Below, piece after piece: positions 7,071 through 25,216 of a stretch of DNA of 64,000 bases (position 1 is the stretch's first letter; each line of letters starts with the position of its first letter). Position numbers and translations under genes: made by a program. Below the pieces are notes generated by a model that made no database searches, was not told where the DNA came from, and saw only the letters and a program-made list of their open reading frames with translations. The DNA is from Candidatus Zixiibacteriota bacterium (GTDB taxonomy: Bacteria > Zixibacteria > MSB-5A5 > WJJR01): contig JBFMGX010000004.1 of NCBI GenBank assembly GCA_040752595.1, forward strand, positions 281,440-345,439, given 5' to 3'.

Positions 7071-8624
7071 TCACGGGCAGGGGAGGGCGCAGGGATCGCA
7101 GAAGGGCGTCGCGTCGCCGCGGAAAGCGCGGTTGACCATCCCCACGACGTCTTGCACGGTGGTCACGCAATCGCAGTTGATGTCGCAGCGATCCACGTGC
7201 GGACACCCGGGGTCCGTGATCGGAGCGGCGCCGCGAAACGCGGCACTCACGACGAGGACGACATCACTGACGTTCGGTACCCCGTCACACAGCGGGTCGC
7301 CGTGACAGGGACAGAGGCATGCCGACTCGCAACCGTCCGGAACACCGTTGGAATTCGTGTCGGCGGACACGCCACGGTTGATCTGGCAGGAATCGGCGAT
7401 GTGGTTCGAGTCGCAGTCGGCGAACGCGGCCGGTACGATTTTGTAGGCCTCGCCGTCGAAGTAGTCCAGGATGTACAGCTCGCCGTAGGCATCTTCGCCG
7501 AATGAGGTCACCTGGCTGATGGCCGGAGTCCCGGGCGGGTCCAGCTCGGCGGTGCGATCCTGGAAGTTGGACTTCGTCACGCCGTCGTACTGGAAGCTCC
7601 AGATCGTCCCGGCGCAGTAGTCGGCAAAGACATAGGTTCCCGCCAGTTCCGCGATGGCGCAGCCGCGATACACGTATCCGCCCGTGATCGAACACCCGTC
7701 GCTGTGCGTGTATTCATGGATCGGCAGGGTCAGGCGCGGGGCATTGCACGTGCATCCGGTCATTCCCGTGCATATGGTCCCCTCCATGCAGCGCCAACCG
7801 TAGTTCTCGCCCCCGGCACTCGCGGCGGGCTGGAAGTCGACCTCCTCGCGGGCCGACTGGCCGACGTCGGCGATGTAGAGATTGCCGTTCAGGCGATCGA
7901 AACCGAATCGCCATGGGTTGCGCAGGCCGAACGCCCAGATCTCCGGCAGCGTGTCCACCACCCCGACGTAGGGGTTGTCGACCGGAACATACGGTGCGGC
8001 GATGTCGACATCGAGCCGGAGCAGCTTCCCCAGCAGAGTCCCCGGGTTCTGGCCGTTGCCGATCGTCCCGTGCTGGTCATTGGCGCCGCCGCCATCGCCC
8101 ATCCCGACATAGAGTTTGCCATCGGGACCGAACTGCAAACACCCGCCGTTGTGATTCGACTCCGGCTGGGCGATTGTCTTGAGGATCAGGGCGCCGGCCG
8201 GGTCGGCCGAATCGGGATCGGCGGAGACGCTGTACCGGGCGATCACCGTGCTGCCGCTGTTGTTCGTGTAGTTGACATAGAAATAGCCGTTCTGGGCGTA
8301 CTGGGGGTGGAATGCCAGACCCAGAAGCCCACGTTCGCCACAGCACGATGAGATCGCGCTCACGTCGAGAAAGGCCCCCGAAAGCAAGGCCCCGTCCTTG
8401 ATGATGCGGATCATCCCATCCTGCTCGACCACAAAGAGGCGATGGTAGTCGCCGGGCGGGGCGCACAGATAGACCGGCCGATTGAGGCCGGAGGCGATGC
8501 GGACGGTCGTGACGGCGGCCATCGACGTGGCGGCGAACGCCAGCAGGACCGTGACCCCCGCCAGAATTCCCATGACGTGTCGCACCGATTCAAGCCGTTC
8601 TCTGTGGTTGTCCTTGTCCATCAT
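7071..8624 (-). CDS. Secreted PQQ-type glucose/sorbosone dehydrogenase-like protein with C-terminal dockerin-like tag
   Basis: This 517-residue exported protein has a signal sequence (hydrophobic about 18-36, cleavage near TSMAAV). A six-bladed beta-propeller of the GSDH/Hhip family follows. Diagnostic pieces are GERGLLGLAFHPQY, NHNGGCLQFGPDGKLYVGMG, WAFGLRNPWRFGFDRLNG and ADVGQSAREEVDF. Family members oxidise sugars with PQQ, but many paralogues have unknown substrates. After the propeller come short Asp/Asn-rich calcium-type loops (DCDSNHIADSCQ, DTNSNGVPDGCE). The last 82 residues form the CPCHGDP/NVSDVV/TVQDVV tag shared with three other proteins here. The protein is probably at the cell surface or released. 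Confidence 0.9.
   Translation of the reverse strand: MMDKDNHRERLESVRHVMGILAGVTVLLAFAATSMAAVTTVRIASGLNRPVYLCAPPGDYHRLFVVEQDGMIRIIKDGALLSGAFLDVSAISSCCGERGLLGLAFHPQYAQNGYFYVNYTNNSGSTVIARYSVSADPDSADPAGALILKTIAQPESNHNGGCLQFGPDGKLYVGMGDGGGANDQHGTIGNGQNPGTLLGKLLRLDVDIAAPYVPVDNPYVGVVDTLPEIWAFGLRNPWRFGFDRLNGNLYIADVGQSAREEVDFQPAASAGGENYGWRCMEGTICTGMTGCTCNAPRLTLPIHEYTHSDGCSITGGYVYRGCAIAELAGTYVFADYCAGTIWSFQYDGVTKSNFQDRTAELDPPGTPAISQVTSFGEDAYGELYILDYFDGEAYKIVPAAFADCDSNHIADSCQINRGVSADTNSNGVPDGCESACLCPCHGDPLCDGVPNVSDVVLVVSAAFRGAAPITDPGCPHVDRCDINCDCVTTVQDVVGMVNRAFRGDATPFCDPCALPCP
7074..7319 (-). other. Dockerin-like C-terminal tag, copy 1
   Basis: This 82-residue domain ends the sugar-dehydrogenase-like protein. 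It has two calcium-loop-like half repeats, LCDGVPNVSDVVLVV and CDINCDCVTTVQDVVGMV, each followed by an AFRG element, and a CDPC terminus. The order CPCHGDP - CDG - DVV - AFRG - DPxC - DxNCDxV - DVV - AFRG - CDPC matches the copies at 24592, 29246 and 34717. In this copy the second loop reads DCVTT instead of DGVTT. Confidence 0.85.
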
Positions 8625-21090: not shown

Positions 21091-21117
21091 TGACAAGATG
21101 AAAAGTACATCTTGACA
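21091..21117. promoter_or_regulatory. Imperfect dyad with two TTGACA boxes upstream of the Cys-rich gene
   Basis: TGACAAGATG (21091-21100) and CATCTTGACA (21108-21117) form an imperfect dyad around AAAAGTA. TTGACA occurs at 21090 and 21112, possibly -35 hexamers, but no good -10 was found. The site lies about 100 bases before the start of the Cys-rich gene and about 185 from that of glnA. It could be an operator. Confidence 0.3.
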
Positions 21118-21219
21118 ACTGTTGTCGGCGAGGTGATCTTTGGAATAGTCCGTGTCGGGGTCAGTGGCAATGTCGGCGGCCCCGGGGTCTTCCAACACTA
21201 CCCACCGAGGAGGTGGTTT

Positions 21220-24200
21220 ATGGTCACCATCCGTGGTGAACCGCGCCGTTCAGCGACGGGGCAAGCGATATCCTGTCTTGGTCCTCCCGCTGTCGTCGCG
21301 GCAGTAATGGTCCTCGTCTGTCTTGCCCTCGCTCCTTTCGGTGCCGCGCGTGCGGCATCCGATCCTCAACCCTCTCCGCTCTTCGCGCGCAGTTTGCAGC
21401 AGTCGATCCAAAAGTTTGACGATCAGGGAGTTGCGGCTCCAGTCGCACGGCCGGCCGGGAACGGTTTGGCCCTTGCGGCACGACCTGCGGGAGCGGATAC
21501 TCTGCCGACGATGGCCGGGTTCCCGACCTGCGCCGGGATGCAGACCTGCCCCGGCACCGCCAGTTGCGGTGGAACATCGACCTGCCCGGGGACGACGACC
21601 TGTGGGCAGACCTGTATGGGAACAGCCACCTGCACTGGCACCGCCACGTGCGGTTTGGCGACCTGCCCCGGGCTGTTCACCTGTGTGGGCTCAGTGACCT
21701 GTACCGGTTCGGGCACATGTGACGCTTCGGCGACCTGCGTCGGCCAGACAACGTGTGGCGGGAGCACCTGCCAGGGGACGTTTACCTGTCCCGGTACACT
21801 CACGTGTCCCGGAACCATGACATGCGACGGGTCCGCGACGTGCGGCTGGTATCCGACCTGCATGGGGTATTCATCGTGTTTGGTCGACTGCAATCCGACG
21901 ATGCAGGGGATGTCCACGTGCCAGGGCTCATCGACTTGTCCCGACGCACCGACTTGCAGCGGCGCTTCGACATGCCAGGGAACATACACATGCATGGGTT
22001 CGGCGACGTGTCCCAGCACGCCCACGTGCCCCGGGCCGGCGACCTGCATTGGCTATGTCACGTGCACACCCGGTCCTACGTGTGATGCCGCGCCGACCTG
22101 CTATGACGTGGTGTGCCGGCCGACCATGCCGGGGATGATGACCTGCCAATACAACTACACTTGCCCGGGGGCGTACACCTGCCCTGGTCAGAGCACATGC
22201 CACGGGACTGAGACCTGTGACGGCCATCTGACCTGTACGTATGGTCCGACCTGTAGCGGGACTGCCGGTCCCACTTGCTCGAGCGAGCCCACCTGCCCCC
22301 ACACTGAGACTTGCTGGGGCCAGGCGACCTGTCAGGGCGCGCCGACGTGTCCCGGATCGGAGACTTCGGCCGGATCGCCCACGTGTATTGGGACCAGTAC
22401 CTGTGAAAGTGGGCCAACGTGCTATGGTTTCCCGACTTGCAATGGCTCACCGACGTGCTTCGTGACGTGTGACATCACCTGTGCGTCGCATGCGACCTGC
22501 GACGGCACGCCGACATGCAGCCCCGGCACAACGTGCATCGACTTCCCGACCTGCTATGGCGAATCGACCTGCGGGACGCCGACCTGTCCCGGTGTGGCCA
22601 CGTGTCCGGGCTACACAACCTGTGCGGGTTCAGAGACGTGCCCTGACATGTCGACCTGCCATGGATACACGACCTGCGACGGGTACCTGACATGTACCAC
22701 AGGCCCAACCTGCGGCGGTGACATCGGTCCGACCTGCGCCGGAGAGGCAACCTGTGAAGGGTCGTTGACCTGCTGGTACACACAGACATGCCATGGATTC
22801 CCGACCTGTCCGGAGTGGCCGACATCACCGGGATATCCCACCTGTGAAGGCTCGTTCACCTGTTACAGTGCGTACACGACATGCGCGGGTCAACCCACAT
22901 GCCAGCCGGCCTTCCCATGCGAGCCGACCATGCCGGGAATCCCGACTTGCGCCGGGTACGAAACCTGCGAAGGCACTTTCACGTGCTTCGGGACCCCCAC
23001 CTGCAAGAACATGTCGACCTGCCCTGGCGCTGAAACCTGCGATGGGACGAGCACCTGCGTCGGCGGCGTGACTTGCATGCACATCGCCACCTGCCCCGAT
23101 CAGCCGACCTGCAAAGGGTACATGACCTGCTACCGCAATATCACCTGCGCCGGCGGGGCCACACCGACCTGCAATCCCGAGCCGACCTGCAGTTGGTCGG
23201 TGACCTGCACCGGCAGCACGACATGTCCTGGTACCGAGACCTGTATTGGTGCCAACACCTGTCCGGGGGCGCCCACTTGCACCGGCACCATGACCTGCTC
23301 ACCCGATGGGTCCACCTGTATGGGGAGCCCGACCTGTGTCGGCAGCACAACGTGTGCCGGCTCAGGAACATGCCCGGGAGCGCCGACGTGCGATCCGATC
23401 GAGACCTGCGACGGCATGGTGACCTGCGCGGGCACGGTGACTTGCGTCGGCGAGATGACCTGTCCCGGTTGGGAGACCTGCCGCGGTACCGTGACTTGCG
23501 ACATCACGTGCGACGGGGCGACGACCTGTCCAGGCACCTCGACCTGTGCGGGTACGGAATCGTGCATCGGAACCACGACCTGTCCCGGCACGAGTACGTG
23601 TCCTGGTGAGTTGACCTGCACCGGGACCGGAACCTGTCCGGGTGATCCGAGTTGCGGCGACGTGACCTGCGCCCCGCAACCGACCTGTGACCAGGATCCG
23701 TCTTGCTGGGGCGGCGCAACCTGCGTCGGCGCCAACACCTGTCCGGGAACAGCCACGTGTGCAGGATTCTCCTGCCCGGGCGGACCGACCTGCACCGGCG
23801 TTTTGACGTGTCCGGGCGGTACGACCTGCGACGGGACCTCGACCTGCAGGGCGGCGGTGACCTGCCCCGGAGCGCCGACATGCTACGGGACCGCAACGTG
23901 TGCCGGCGGACTGACCTGTGAGCAGAATCCCACGTCACCAGGGTATCCGACGTGTGAAGGGTCGACCACTTGCATCCCGGCCATAACATGCGATCCGACG
24001 CCGACATGCAGCCAATTCCCGACGTGCGGCTACTACTACACGTGTCCCGGGTGGATGACCTGTGGAGGACCAGGTACACCGACGTGCGATGGGACGCCAA
24101 CCTGCACTTTTGGTTCGACCTGCCCAGGAACCCCGACATGCATGATGACTGAGACCTGCGTGCAGCCAACATGCCCAGGTGGAATGACCTGTCCGGAGGG

Positions 24201-24885
24201 CACGACCTGTGTCGGCTTCATCACCTGCGAGGGCATGACGACCTGTCACTACACGGCGACCTGCTCCGGTTACTTCACCTGCGAGCAATCTCCGACGTGT
24301 GACGGCTTCCCGACCTGTCCGGGGTCAATGACCTGCATGGGCACGGCGACTTGCGGCGGCGGAGTGACCTGCGACGGGTCCGCAACGTGCGTGGGACCGA
24401 CCTGCGGCGGTGAGGCGACCTGCACCGGCGGGGCCACCTGCAACTACCAGCCGACCTGCTGGAACATCATTACCTGCCCCGGCTGGACAACCTGTCCGGG
24501 GACGGCGACCTGTGCGCCGGAAGCGACCTGTCCGGGGATTCCGACCTGCGGCGGTTACACGACCTGTCTGCCAATGCCGGAGTGCTTCCAGTGCTCGTGC
24601 CCGTGCCACGGCGATCCGGTGTGCGACGGCGTACCCAACGTTCAGGATGTGGTGGCGACGGTCAATGTCGCGTTCCGCGGCGGCGCGCCGACCTACGATC
24701 CGACGTGTGTTCAGGGGAATCCGGCGCAGCGCACCGACCTGAACTGTGACGGGGTCTGCACGGTGCAGGATGTCGTGCGCATGGTCAATGTGGCGTTCCG
24801 GGGTTATGCTCCGGCGACGCAAATCTGCGACCCGTGCGCCTGCAACCCCTACCCGACCAACTGCCCACCTCTGCCGCCTGATTGA
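21220..24885 (+). CDS. Exported giant cysteine-hexad repeat protein with dockerin-like tag
   Basis: This 1221-residue protein starts at 21220, after GAGGAGGTGG. A signal segment (AAVMVLVCLALAPFGAARA) ends near residue 46. A linker of about 50 residues rich in Ala, Pro and Arg follows. From about residue 100 to 1125 the chain is made of short units [T/S]-C-x-G-x-x, for example TCPGTATCxG and TCTGSGTCDAS, with cysteine usually every sixth residue and occasional 4- or 5-residue steps; by length about 170 cysteines are expected. A few units have Ser for Cys (PTSPGYPTCEGS occurs twice). The last 97 residues are the CPCHGDP/DVV tag. Regular Cys spacing of six resembles disulfide-stapled beta-solenoids such as the Tenebrio antifreeze protein, but no function is recognised. 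A strong terminator follows. Confidence 0.9.
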   Translation: MVTIRGEPRRSATGQAISCLGPPAVVAAVMVLVCLALAPFGAARAASDPQPSPLFARSLQQSIQKFDDQGVAAPVARPAGNGLALAARPAGADTLPTMAGFPTCAGMQTCPGTASCGGTSTCPGTTTCGQTCMGTATCTGTATCGLATCPGLFTCVGSVTCTGSGTCDASATCVGQTTCGGSTCQGTFTCPGTLTCPGTMTCDGSATCGWYPTCMGYSSCLVDCNPTMQGMSTCQGSSTCPDAPTCSGASTCQGTYTCMGSATCPSTPTCPGPATCIGYVTCTPGPTCDAAPTCYDVVCRPTMPGMMTCQYNYTCPGAYTCPGQSTCHGTETCDGHLTCTYGPTCSGTAGPTCSSEPTCPHTETCWGQATCQGAPTCPGSETSAGSPTCIGTSTCESGPTCYGFPTCNGSPTCFVTCDITCASHATCDGTPTCSPGTTCIDFPTCYGESTCGTPTCPGVATCPGYTTCAGSETCPDMSTCHGYTTCDGYLTCTTGPTCGGDIGPTCAGEATCEGSLTCWYTQTCHGFPTCPEWPTSPGYPTCEGSFTCYSAYTTCAGQPTCQPAFPCEPTMPGIPTCAGYETCEGTFTCFGTPTCKNMSTCPGAETCDGTSTCVGGVTCMHIATCPDQPTCKGYMTCYRNITCAGGATPTCNPEPTCSWSVTCTGSTTCPGTETCIGANTCPGAPTCTGTMTCSPDGSTCMGSPTCVGSTTCAGSGTCPGAPTCDPIETCDGMVTCAGTVTCVGEMTCPGWETCRGTVTCDITCDGATTCPGTSTCAGTESCIGTTTCPGTSTCPGELTCTGTGTCPGDPSCGDVTCAPQPTCDQDPSCWGGATCVGANTCPGTATCAGFSCPGGPTCTGVLTCPGGTTCDGTSTCRAAVTCPGAPTCYGTATCAGGLTCEQNPTSPGYPTCEGSTTCIPAITCDPTPTCSQFPTCGYYYTCPGWMTCGGPGTPTCDGTPTCTFGSTCPGTPTCMMTETCVQPTCPGGMTCPEGTTCVGFITCEGMTTCHYTATCSGYFTCEQSPTCDGFPTCPGSMTCMGTATCGGGVTCDGSATCVGPTCGGEATCTGGATCNYQPTCWNIITCPGWTTCPGTATCAPEATCPGIPTCGGYTTCLPMPECFQCSCPCHGDPVCDGVPNVQDVVATVNVAFRGGAPTYDPTCVQGNPAQRTDLNCDGVCTVQDVVRMVNVAFRGYAPATQICDPCACNPYPTNCPPLPPD
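21520..24590 (+). repeat. Tandem approximately 18-bp coding repeats (TCxGxx units)
   Basis: The DNA repeats follow ACCTGYnnnGGnnnnnn with silent variation, so units are diverged rather than freshly duplicated. Rarer longer-range echoes exist: PTMPG/PTMQG blocks near 21895, 22122 and 22929, and TC-GPTC-x-GPTC blocks near 22240 and 22700. The repeat leaves long open shadow frames on the opposite strand (QVxVPGQV-like) that are not genes. Confidence 0.9.
24592..24882 (+). other. Dockerin-like C-terminal tag, copy 2
   Basis: This tag ends the Cys-hexad protein. Half repeats are VCDGVPNVQDVVATVNVAF and LNCDGVCTVQDVVRMVNVAF, each followed by RG, then CDPC and a proline-rich end (PTNCPPLPPD). It matches the copies at 7074, 29246 and 34717 although the proteins upstream are unrelated. 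Confidence 0.88.
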
Positions 24886-24908
24886 CCAACTTGGTCGGCC
24901 GAAACACA

Positions 24909-24941
24909 ACGGGGCATCCCAATCGGGATGCCCCGTTCTTC
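24909..24941 (+). terminator. Rho-independent terminator of the Cys-hexad gene
   Basis: A perfect 12-bp stem (ACGGGGCATCCC / GGGATGCCCCGT) with an AATC loop lies 23 bases after the stop codon and is followed by TCTTCT. Confidence 0.85.
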
Positions 24942-24971
24942 TGTGCACACAGTCGACTGTGTTCCATGTGC

Positions 24972-25178
24972 CACTGACCTTGGTCAGTGTCGTCTCCTCC
25001 ATCTGGAGAGCAGGACGATCCGTGCAGGCGATGGCTGCCCGAGCTGGAGCGGTCAGTTCGTCAACGTCGCCACTGACCAAGGTCAGTGGCACACACGCGT
25101 CTGCAACGAACGTGGCACTGACCAAGGTCAGTGGCACACACGCGTCTGCAATGAACGTGCCACTGACCTTGGTCAGTG
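24972..25178. repeat. GACCAAGGTC palindromes with a 45-bp tandem array
   Basis: The 18-bp dyad CACTGACC(TT or AA)GGTCAGTG occurs at 24972, 25071, 25116 and 25161. The last three are spaced exactly 45 bases, with the conserved spacer GCACACACGCGTCTGCAA between them. The AA and TT versions are reverse complements, so the dyad inverts between copies. Related palindromes with a shared core lie at 62628 and near 62700. The array fills the 330-base gap between two convergent genes. Confidence 0.88.
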
Positions 25179-25216
25179 GCACACGTATTTCGGCTCACCC
25201 AACGCCGTCTGAATGA

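Follow-up and report, generated by a model that had tools for sequence, protein, structure and literature searches.

A family of cysteine-hexad array proteins in an order of Zixiibacteriota: probable disulfide-locked surface rods or matrices

Regularly spaced cysteines in a solenoid are known from the antifreeze protein (AFP) of Tenebrio, in which a 12-residue coil, TCTxSxNCxxAx, is wound into a right-handed beta-helix; hyperactive insect AFPs have ranks of TxT as their key motif (PMC8038014). Fungal ice-nucleating solenoids have disulfide caps, at their ends only (PMC13288671), and a knotted solenoid family reported in 2026, mostly from Caulobacteraceae, carries Cys pairs without disulfides (PMC13123833); it is not the family described here. 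That protein is encoded in a 64,000-nucleotide stretch of contig JBFMGX010000004.1 from a Candidatus Zixiibacteriota bacterium (this whole stretch is referred to as the window), at positions 21220-24885 of the + strand. The product, of 1,221 amino acids plus stop with 180 Cys, consists of a putative signal peptide, a short N-terminal motif, a long array of cysteine-containing hexads and a dockerin-like C-terminal tag. As judged from sequence, it is a member of an undescribed family of surface proteins without precedent in the libraries searched. The chain probably forms a rod or matrix at the surface, locked by disulfides, by a mechanism that we infer.

The array (21526-24567, + strand; residues 103-1116) has the consensus hexad T-C-x-G-x-x. 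Across the whole protein 142 of 179 Cys-Cys gaps equal six, whereas 2,000 shuffles of its residues gave 11.9 such gaps on average and never more than 26; within the array, which contains 166 Cys, the figure is 140 of 165, so an earlier note made from the sequence alone, which had described a cysteine about every six residues over roughly 1000 residues, is borne out. The remaining gaps measure 5 (eight cases), 4 (five), 8 (four), 10 (three), 12 (three) and 7 (two), and the interruptions, few in number, often come as compensating pairs. Among the 170 Cys in and around the array, the preceding residue is Thr in 157 cases and Ser in 7, and Gly stands at +2 in 109, in agreement with the [T/S]-C-x-G-x-x unit proposed in the same note; some array Cys are themselves replaced in register by Ser (TSPGYPTC). 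The composition is 16% Cys, 23% Thr, 15% Gly and 10% Pro, with few hydrophobic residues and almost no Lys or Arg (6 Lys plus Arg versus 59 Asp plus Glu over 1,012 residues, hence a net negative charge). Such a make-up, rich in Cys and poor in basic and hydrophobic residues, is what one would expect of a chain in which disulfides stand in for the hydrophobic core. At the DNA level, Tandem Repeats Finder detects four short 18-bp patches only, and Thr and Gly codons are mixed across the units; with DNA repeats this weak, the pattern is kept at the protein level, as had been argued from silent variation between units.

A search of Pfam and NCBIfam with the whole protein matched no family, consistent with the absence of any named family in the first reading, and neither the protein nor pieces of its array gave a Hexapep match in Pfam. 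The home genome (2.94 Mb, 50 contigs) contains six array genes: that of the window, two on contig 47, and one each on contigs 15, 36 and 38. When 38 genomes of the class were compared, arrays were present in 9 of 9 genomes of the order and in 0 of 29 others, and a profile of the array (A2) matched the same nine among 133 Zixiibacteriota genomes and none of the 124 outside the order. Family proteins range from about 400 to 1,500 residues, with up to 230 Cys, and the cysteine spacing is conserved in these homologues, with 2,093 of some 2,470 gaps equal to six across 26 proteins. The outcome that the earlier note named as refuting its reading, a lack of conserved Cys spacing in homologues, is therefore contradicted. 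Genome contigs were also scanned with a degenerate DNA pattern for six T-C steps; the matches listed are mostly microsatellite-like low complexity, and real arrays among them are L063, whose contig is labelled Candidatus Zixiibacteriota, L132 and L088. The same pattern found low-complexity repeats only in IMG/VR, a genome-contig scan with back-translated window peptides gave no match, and a plasmid search gave two weak ones. No description of such arrays was found in the literature searched, which covered few subscription journals or preprints. The family is so far known from one Zixiibacteriota order and one unrelated bacterium, a member of the Bacillota.

An exported chain with 166 array Cys and a net negative charge could in principle keep its thiols free, binding metals or storing reducing power in the manner of a surface metallothionein. 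Metal clusters however use CxC or CxxC, and gaps of 2 or 3 are found at none of the 165 array positions in the window protein and at 12 of about 2,470 across the family (one CxC and eleven CxxC in the 26 proteins). The in-register replacement of some Cys by Ser, together with a T-C-x-G rule that has no role in chelation, argues in the same direction, and we regard free thiols as improbable.

Several family members have features of their own. A locus in L034 (3669-10213) encodes an array that exceeds 2,100 residues and is apparently split by a frame shift at 8078-8162, which may be an assembly error or a broken gene. One subgroup (L030, L033:2182-6105, L041, L042 and L045) carries a conserved non-repeat domain (CFxSMGMFLMSANPxD...) upstream of a shorter, less regular array, and the short arrays of L032, L046, L047 and L048 follow a small Cys domain (C-[IV]-YEL-x-C ... 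L-x-x-G-x-R). Array clusters in two genera (L029:723-3134 and L033:15762-18260) adjoin the same DUF4350/ABC-auxiliary (GldG-like) gene; this neighbour (genomes G000 and G005) was not taken as a functional link.

Comparison of synonymous and nonsynonymous change between homologues, a check suggested in the earlier note, indicates that the array cysteines are under purifying selection. The cleanest evidence comes from the ortholog pair L033/L045 (88% identical), where the ratio of nonsynonymous to synonymous substitution (dN/dS) is 0.055 in the array against 0.078 elsewhere, values that are rough, as dS is near saturation in all pairs. In this array 27 of 27 Cys are kept, eight of them via another codon. 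Four paralogue or distant pairs keep 96 of 100, 122 of 124, 96 of 99 and 115 of 119 aligned Cys, with the caveat that alignment of repeats favours Cys matches in distant pairs.

The second hallmark of the family lies at the mature N-terminus. Nearly all complete members carry [SAED]DPxPSPL[FY]xxSLxxS[IVL]xx[FL] immediately after the signal peptide, with the core S-P-L-[FY]-x-x-S-L-x-x-[ST]; in the window protein the motif reads SDPQPSPLFARSLQQSIQKF (21358-21417, + strand). A profile of the motif alone (A1, 30 columns) gives six matches in the home genome, which are the six array genes and nothing else; none of some 70 other proteins that share the C-terminal tag in this genome is matched. Across the phylum the same profile picks out exactly the nine genomes with arrays. 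AlphaFold2 predicts a helix at residues 7-22 of the mature chain with moderate confidence (predicted local distance difference test score, pLDDT, about 67), and the hydrophobic moment marks this helix as amphipathic, a result that is not significant for the Bacillota copy taken alone. Since the motif is so tightly tied to one repeat, it probably serves that repeat, whether as a cap or as a site for a chaperone or for sorting.

The Bacillota protein (L088, from a metagenome-assembled genome with that label) has 483 residues. Its signal peptide is followed by YSPLFDASLQSTLREF, by a stretch of Cys-Gly units among which are 16 regular T-C hexads, and by SLH domains (E = 2.1e-20). It is one independent array among the matches listed for the six-T-C pattern. 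An initial motif score for this protein (E = 4.6e-11) was circular, L088 having been part of the profile, and was discarded; with L088 left out, it is still the top of 19,710 open reading frames, at E = 0.051. The motif profile had no further match in 398 genomes of its phylum or in 112 of its order. Because the motif is found at the same place and on an independent array protein, its presence in L088 likely reflects either homology or convergence under the same constraint, the statistic itself being modest.

The pairing of motif and array also bears on the idea that a maturation system modifies the array, for instance by forming thioethers from T-C pairs, with the SPLFxxSLxxS helix as its recognition leader. 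The motif is short, helical and found on array genes alone, and nearly every unit offers an adjacent T and C, all of which would suit such a system. Its position after a Sec signal peptide, on the other hand, makes cytoplasmic leader-guided enzymes unlikely, the flanking genes of several loci (DUF4350, ABC, sulfatase-like, DUF1028, Lon and GyrB) include no enzyme of this kind, and the neighbours of L088 look like housekeeping genes. We therefore consider enzymatic maturation a very improbable account.

How such proteins would be held at the cell surface is suggested by their C-termini, where the array is combined with three exchangeable surface modules: dockerin-like pairs in most members, Por_Secre_tail/FlgD_ig in L043 and SLH in L088. 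In the window protein the tag is a Cys-flanked double motif, GDPVCDGVPNVQDVVATVNVAFRGG ... TDLNCDGVCTVQDVVRMVNVAFRGY (24592-24882, + strand), with two EF-hand-like halves, and an alignment of family tags (A6) confirms that the duplicated motif is present. This copy matches 0 Pfam families, its score against PF00404 being below the cut-off. Across the family, 9 of 18 tags match Dockerin_1 (PF00404) at E <= 0.01, and a profile built from A6 finds solved dockerins in the PDB (best E 2.6e-6), so the dockerin-like label given earlier was right in kind. The same tag occurs on about 70 proteins of the 2.9-Mb home genome, with examples in the window near 7080, 29250 and 34711 on the minus strand, and only three cohesin matches accompany them; by this count, the genome holds an unusually large predicted set of non-cellulosomal dockerins.

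Candidate partners for the tag are present throughout the order. Cohesins occur in 9 of 9 of its genomes, including the three above cut-off in the home genome (G000), and in 87 of 98 genomes of the class. An order-specific gain of cohesins was rejected on the latter count, and it follows from the class-wide distribution that cohesins did not arrive with the arrays. Six cohesin proteins from four genomes of the order (L345, L346, L347, L348, L349 and L350) all end in type IX tails, of the QNYPNPFN...KKM type, and SprA, of the type IX translocon, was found in 34 of 36 relatives. Taken together, the tails and SprA make display on cohesins anchored by such tails the likely route to the surface, with the array protein held through a predicted dockerin-cohesin interaction.

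These observations, of which the paralogues, the N-terminal motif, the exchangeable surface modules and the Bacillota protein go beyond the earlier note, are drawn together in the following model, which we rate at about even. The protein would be exported by the Sec pathway, in keeping with the earlier note, which had called it exported, and its mature end would keep the short amphipathic helix (SPLFxxSLxxS). The C-terminal dockerin-like pair would bind cohesins that are themselves anchored via type IX secretion. Once outside the cytoplasm, the array cysteines would oxidise to disulfides, paired within the chain. The array, having no globular hydrophobic core, would thereby be locked covalently into a long rod and serve as a stiff spacer or a fibre of the coat. 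The rod may possibly be a beta-solenoid of stacked hexads, a reading that we keep as a good hypothesis. A bolder version, which we hold as tentative, is that the array has a new fold, a solenoid with a disulfide core, made of equal units of six residues, nucleated by the helix and fitted with a lineage-specific anchor, and among the longest covalently locked rods; as framed, it covers about 170 Cys, more than 220 in one relative, and different anchors in two phyla.

A number of results weigh against a folded rod. AlphaFold2 gives no fold either for a 102-residue array piece (mean pLDDT 34.6) or for the N-terminal 214 residues (mean pLDDT 36.3); these runs used shallow alignments, of 12 and 5 rows respectively, so the low values speak neither for nor against a coil. 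If two hexads made up each coil, resemblance at a lag of two hexads would be expected, but it is not raised: there is no 12-residue periodicity, Gly at hexad position 4 and small residues at position 5 are anticorrelated at this lag, and the parity of hexads between interruptions lends no support to 12-residue coils. The figure of about 80 coils given earlier was calculated on the assumption of a 12-residue coil (166/2 = 83) and is not an observation. No solved structure fits the array well, its profile matching scytovirin at E = 0.001, and a phmmer search of the PDB with the protein is headed by Tenebrio AFP (1ezg) at a non-significant E = 1.3. We infer disulfides because the protein is exported and has no other core. 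A search of the order for VKOR gave no homologue, and VKOR was rejected there as the oxidant, DsbA and DsbB not having been searched for. Some proteins show higher similarity at a lag of four hexads, which is what copying of 24-residue blocks would produce. L031 and L035 have a clear super-period of 24 residues, or four hexads, with similarity raised at lags of both 4 and 8 hexads, and the signal looks like a trace of duplication history.

The same results lend weight to a cross-linked matrix, in which flexible array chains are joined through their cysteines into a network, comparable to keratin or egg shell, that surrounds the cell, and the hexad is a rule for cross-link spacing that entails no fold. 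The lack of a predicted fold, the interchangeability of hexads without parity, the several paralogues per genome and the low-complexity acidic composition would all suit such a network. Exact spacing by six over about 2,100 gaps in 26 proteins suggests, as does the low dN/dS, a geometry tighter than a random network requires, and the scarcity of interruptions and their frequent compensation in pairs likewise count against it; we think a matrix unlikely, though worth serious consideration. The least probable reading is an ice-binding protein of the Tenebrio kind, for which the equal Cys spacing and the rank of 1ezg in the PDB search, significance aside, are the arguments. TxT ranks are absent: TCT makes up 11 of the 158 TC in the window protein, and Thr follows Cys in 5% of family hexads. 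Of the features of the Tenebrio protein, the array has the six-residue spacing but neither the 12-residue TCT unit nor a significant sequence similarity.

The reading frame is open from 21112 to 24885 on the + strand, and the probable start, ATG at 21220, is preceded by a Shine-Dalgarno-like GAGGAGGTGG (21207-21216, + strand). The predicted signal peptide (21220-21354, + strand) has a basic start, a hydrophobic core VVAAVMVLVCLALAPF and an AxA-type end before ASDPQ, a layout that recurs in family members, and an Ala/Pro-rich linker without Cys (21418-21525, + strand) separates the motif from the array. A perfect 13-bp hairpin 3' of the stop codon (24908-24937, + strand) is a probable terminator. 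Beyond it, between the array gene and a convergent peptidase gene, a perfect palindrome, CACTGACC(AA/TT)GGTCAGTG, occurs four times at 24967-25183, with three of the copies in 45-bp steps; it was not seen in the other loci compared.

If the rod is real, bacteria would possess a covalently stapled fibre that exceeds every insect antifreeze solenoid in length by far, and protein materials could be built on it as a ready-made scaffold. It would also show how some 80 disulfides form correctly in one exported chain. Even without a fold, a large unnamed family is defined, with a diagnostic 20-residue N-terminal signature. The family points to a cohesin-dockerin system that displays structural proteins in a non-cellulosome lineage, and since motif and array occur jointly in two phyla under different anchors, what the motif does can be tested directly.

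How, then, do these proteins compare with known systems? With the Tenebrio molitor AFP (1EZG) they share a Cys every six residues, a Thr before one of its two Cys, little hydrophobic core and export. They differ from it in a unit of 6 rather than 12 residues, in hexads that are all alike (T-C-x-G-x-x) with TCT rare, in an array about 10 times longer, and in being bacterial and surface-anchored. Scytovirin (2JMV/2QSK), DUF7640 and the tektin-5 tail contain C-x5-C runs with Gly (E of 0.001, 0.016 and 0.04 respectively), but these runs are short and the matches weak and composition-driven. Hexapeptide (left-handed beta-helix) and pentapeptide repeats are likewise long arrays of short equal units that stack as coils, whereas the present array has no repeated hydrophobic core residue, a Cys in each unit and no Pfam match. 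At the C-terminus, the likeness to type I dockerins (PF00404) and their cohesins (PF00963) lies in the duplicated D-x-N-x-D-G ... D(V/I) motif and in the presence of cohesins in the same genomes; the window copy, sub-cut-off in Pfam, lacks part of the first calcium-loop pattern, has extra flanking Cys and is borne by non-cellulosomal cargo. Proteins with type IX tails (PF18962) or SLH domains (PF00395) have the job of surface attachment in common with L043 and L088, which carry these modules, but the anchor alone is shared, and the Cys array is foreign to those families.

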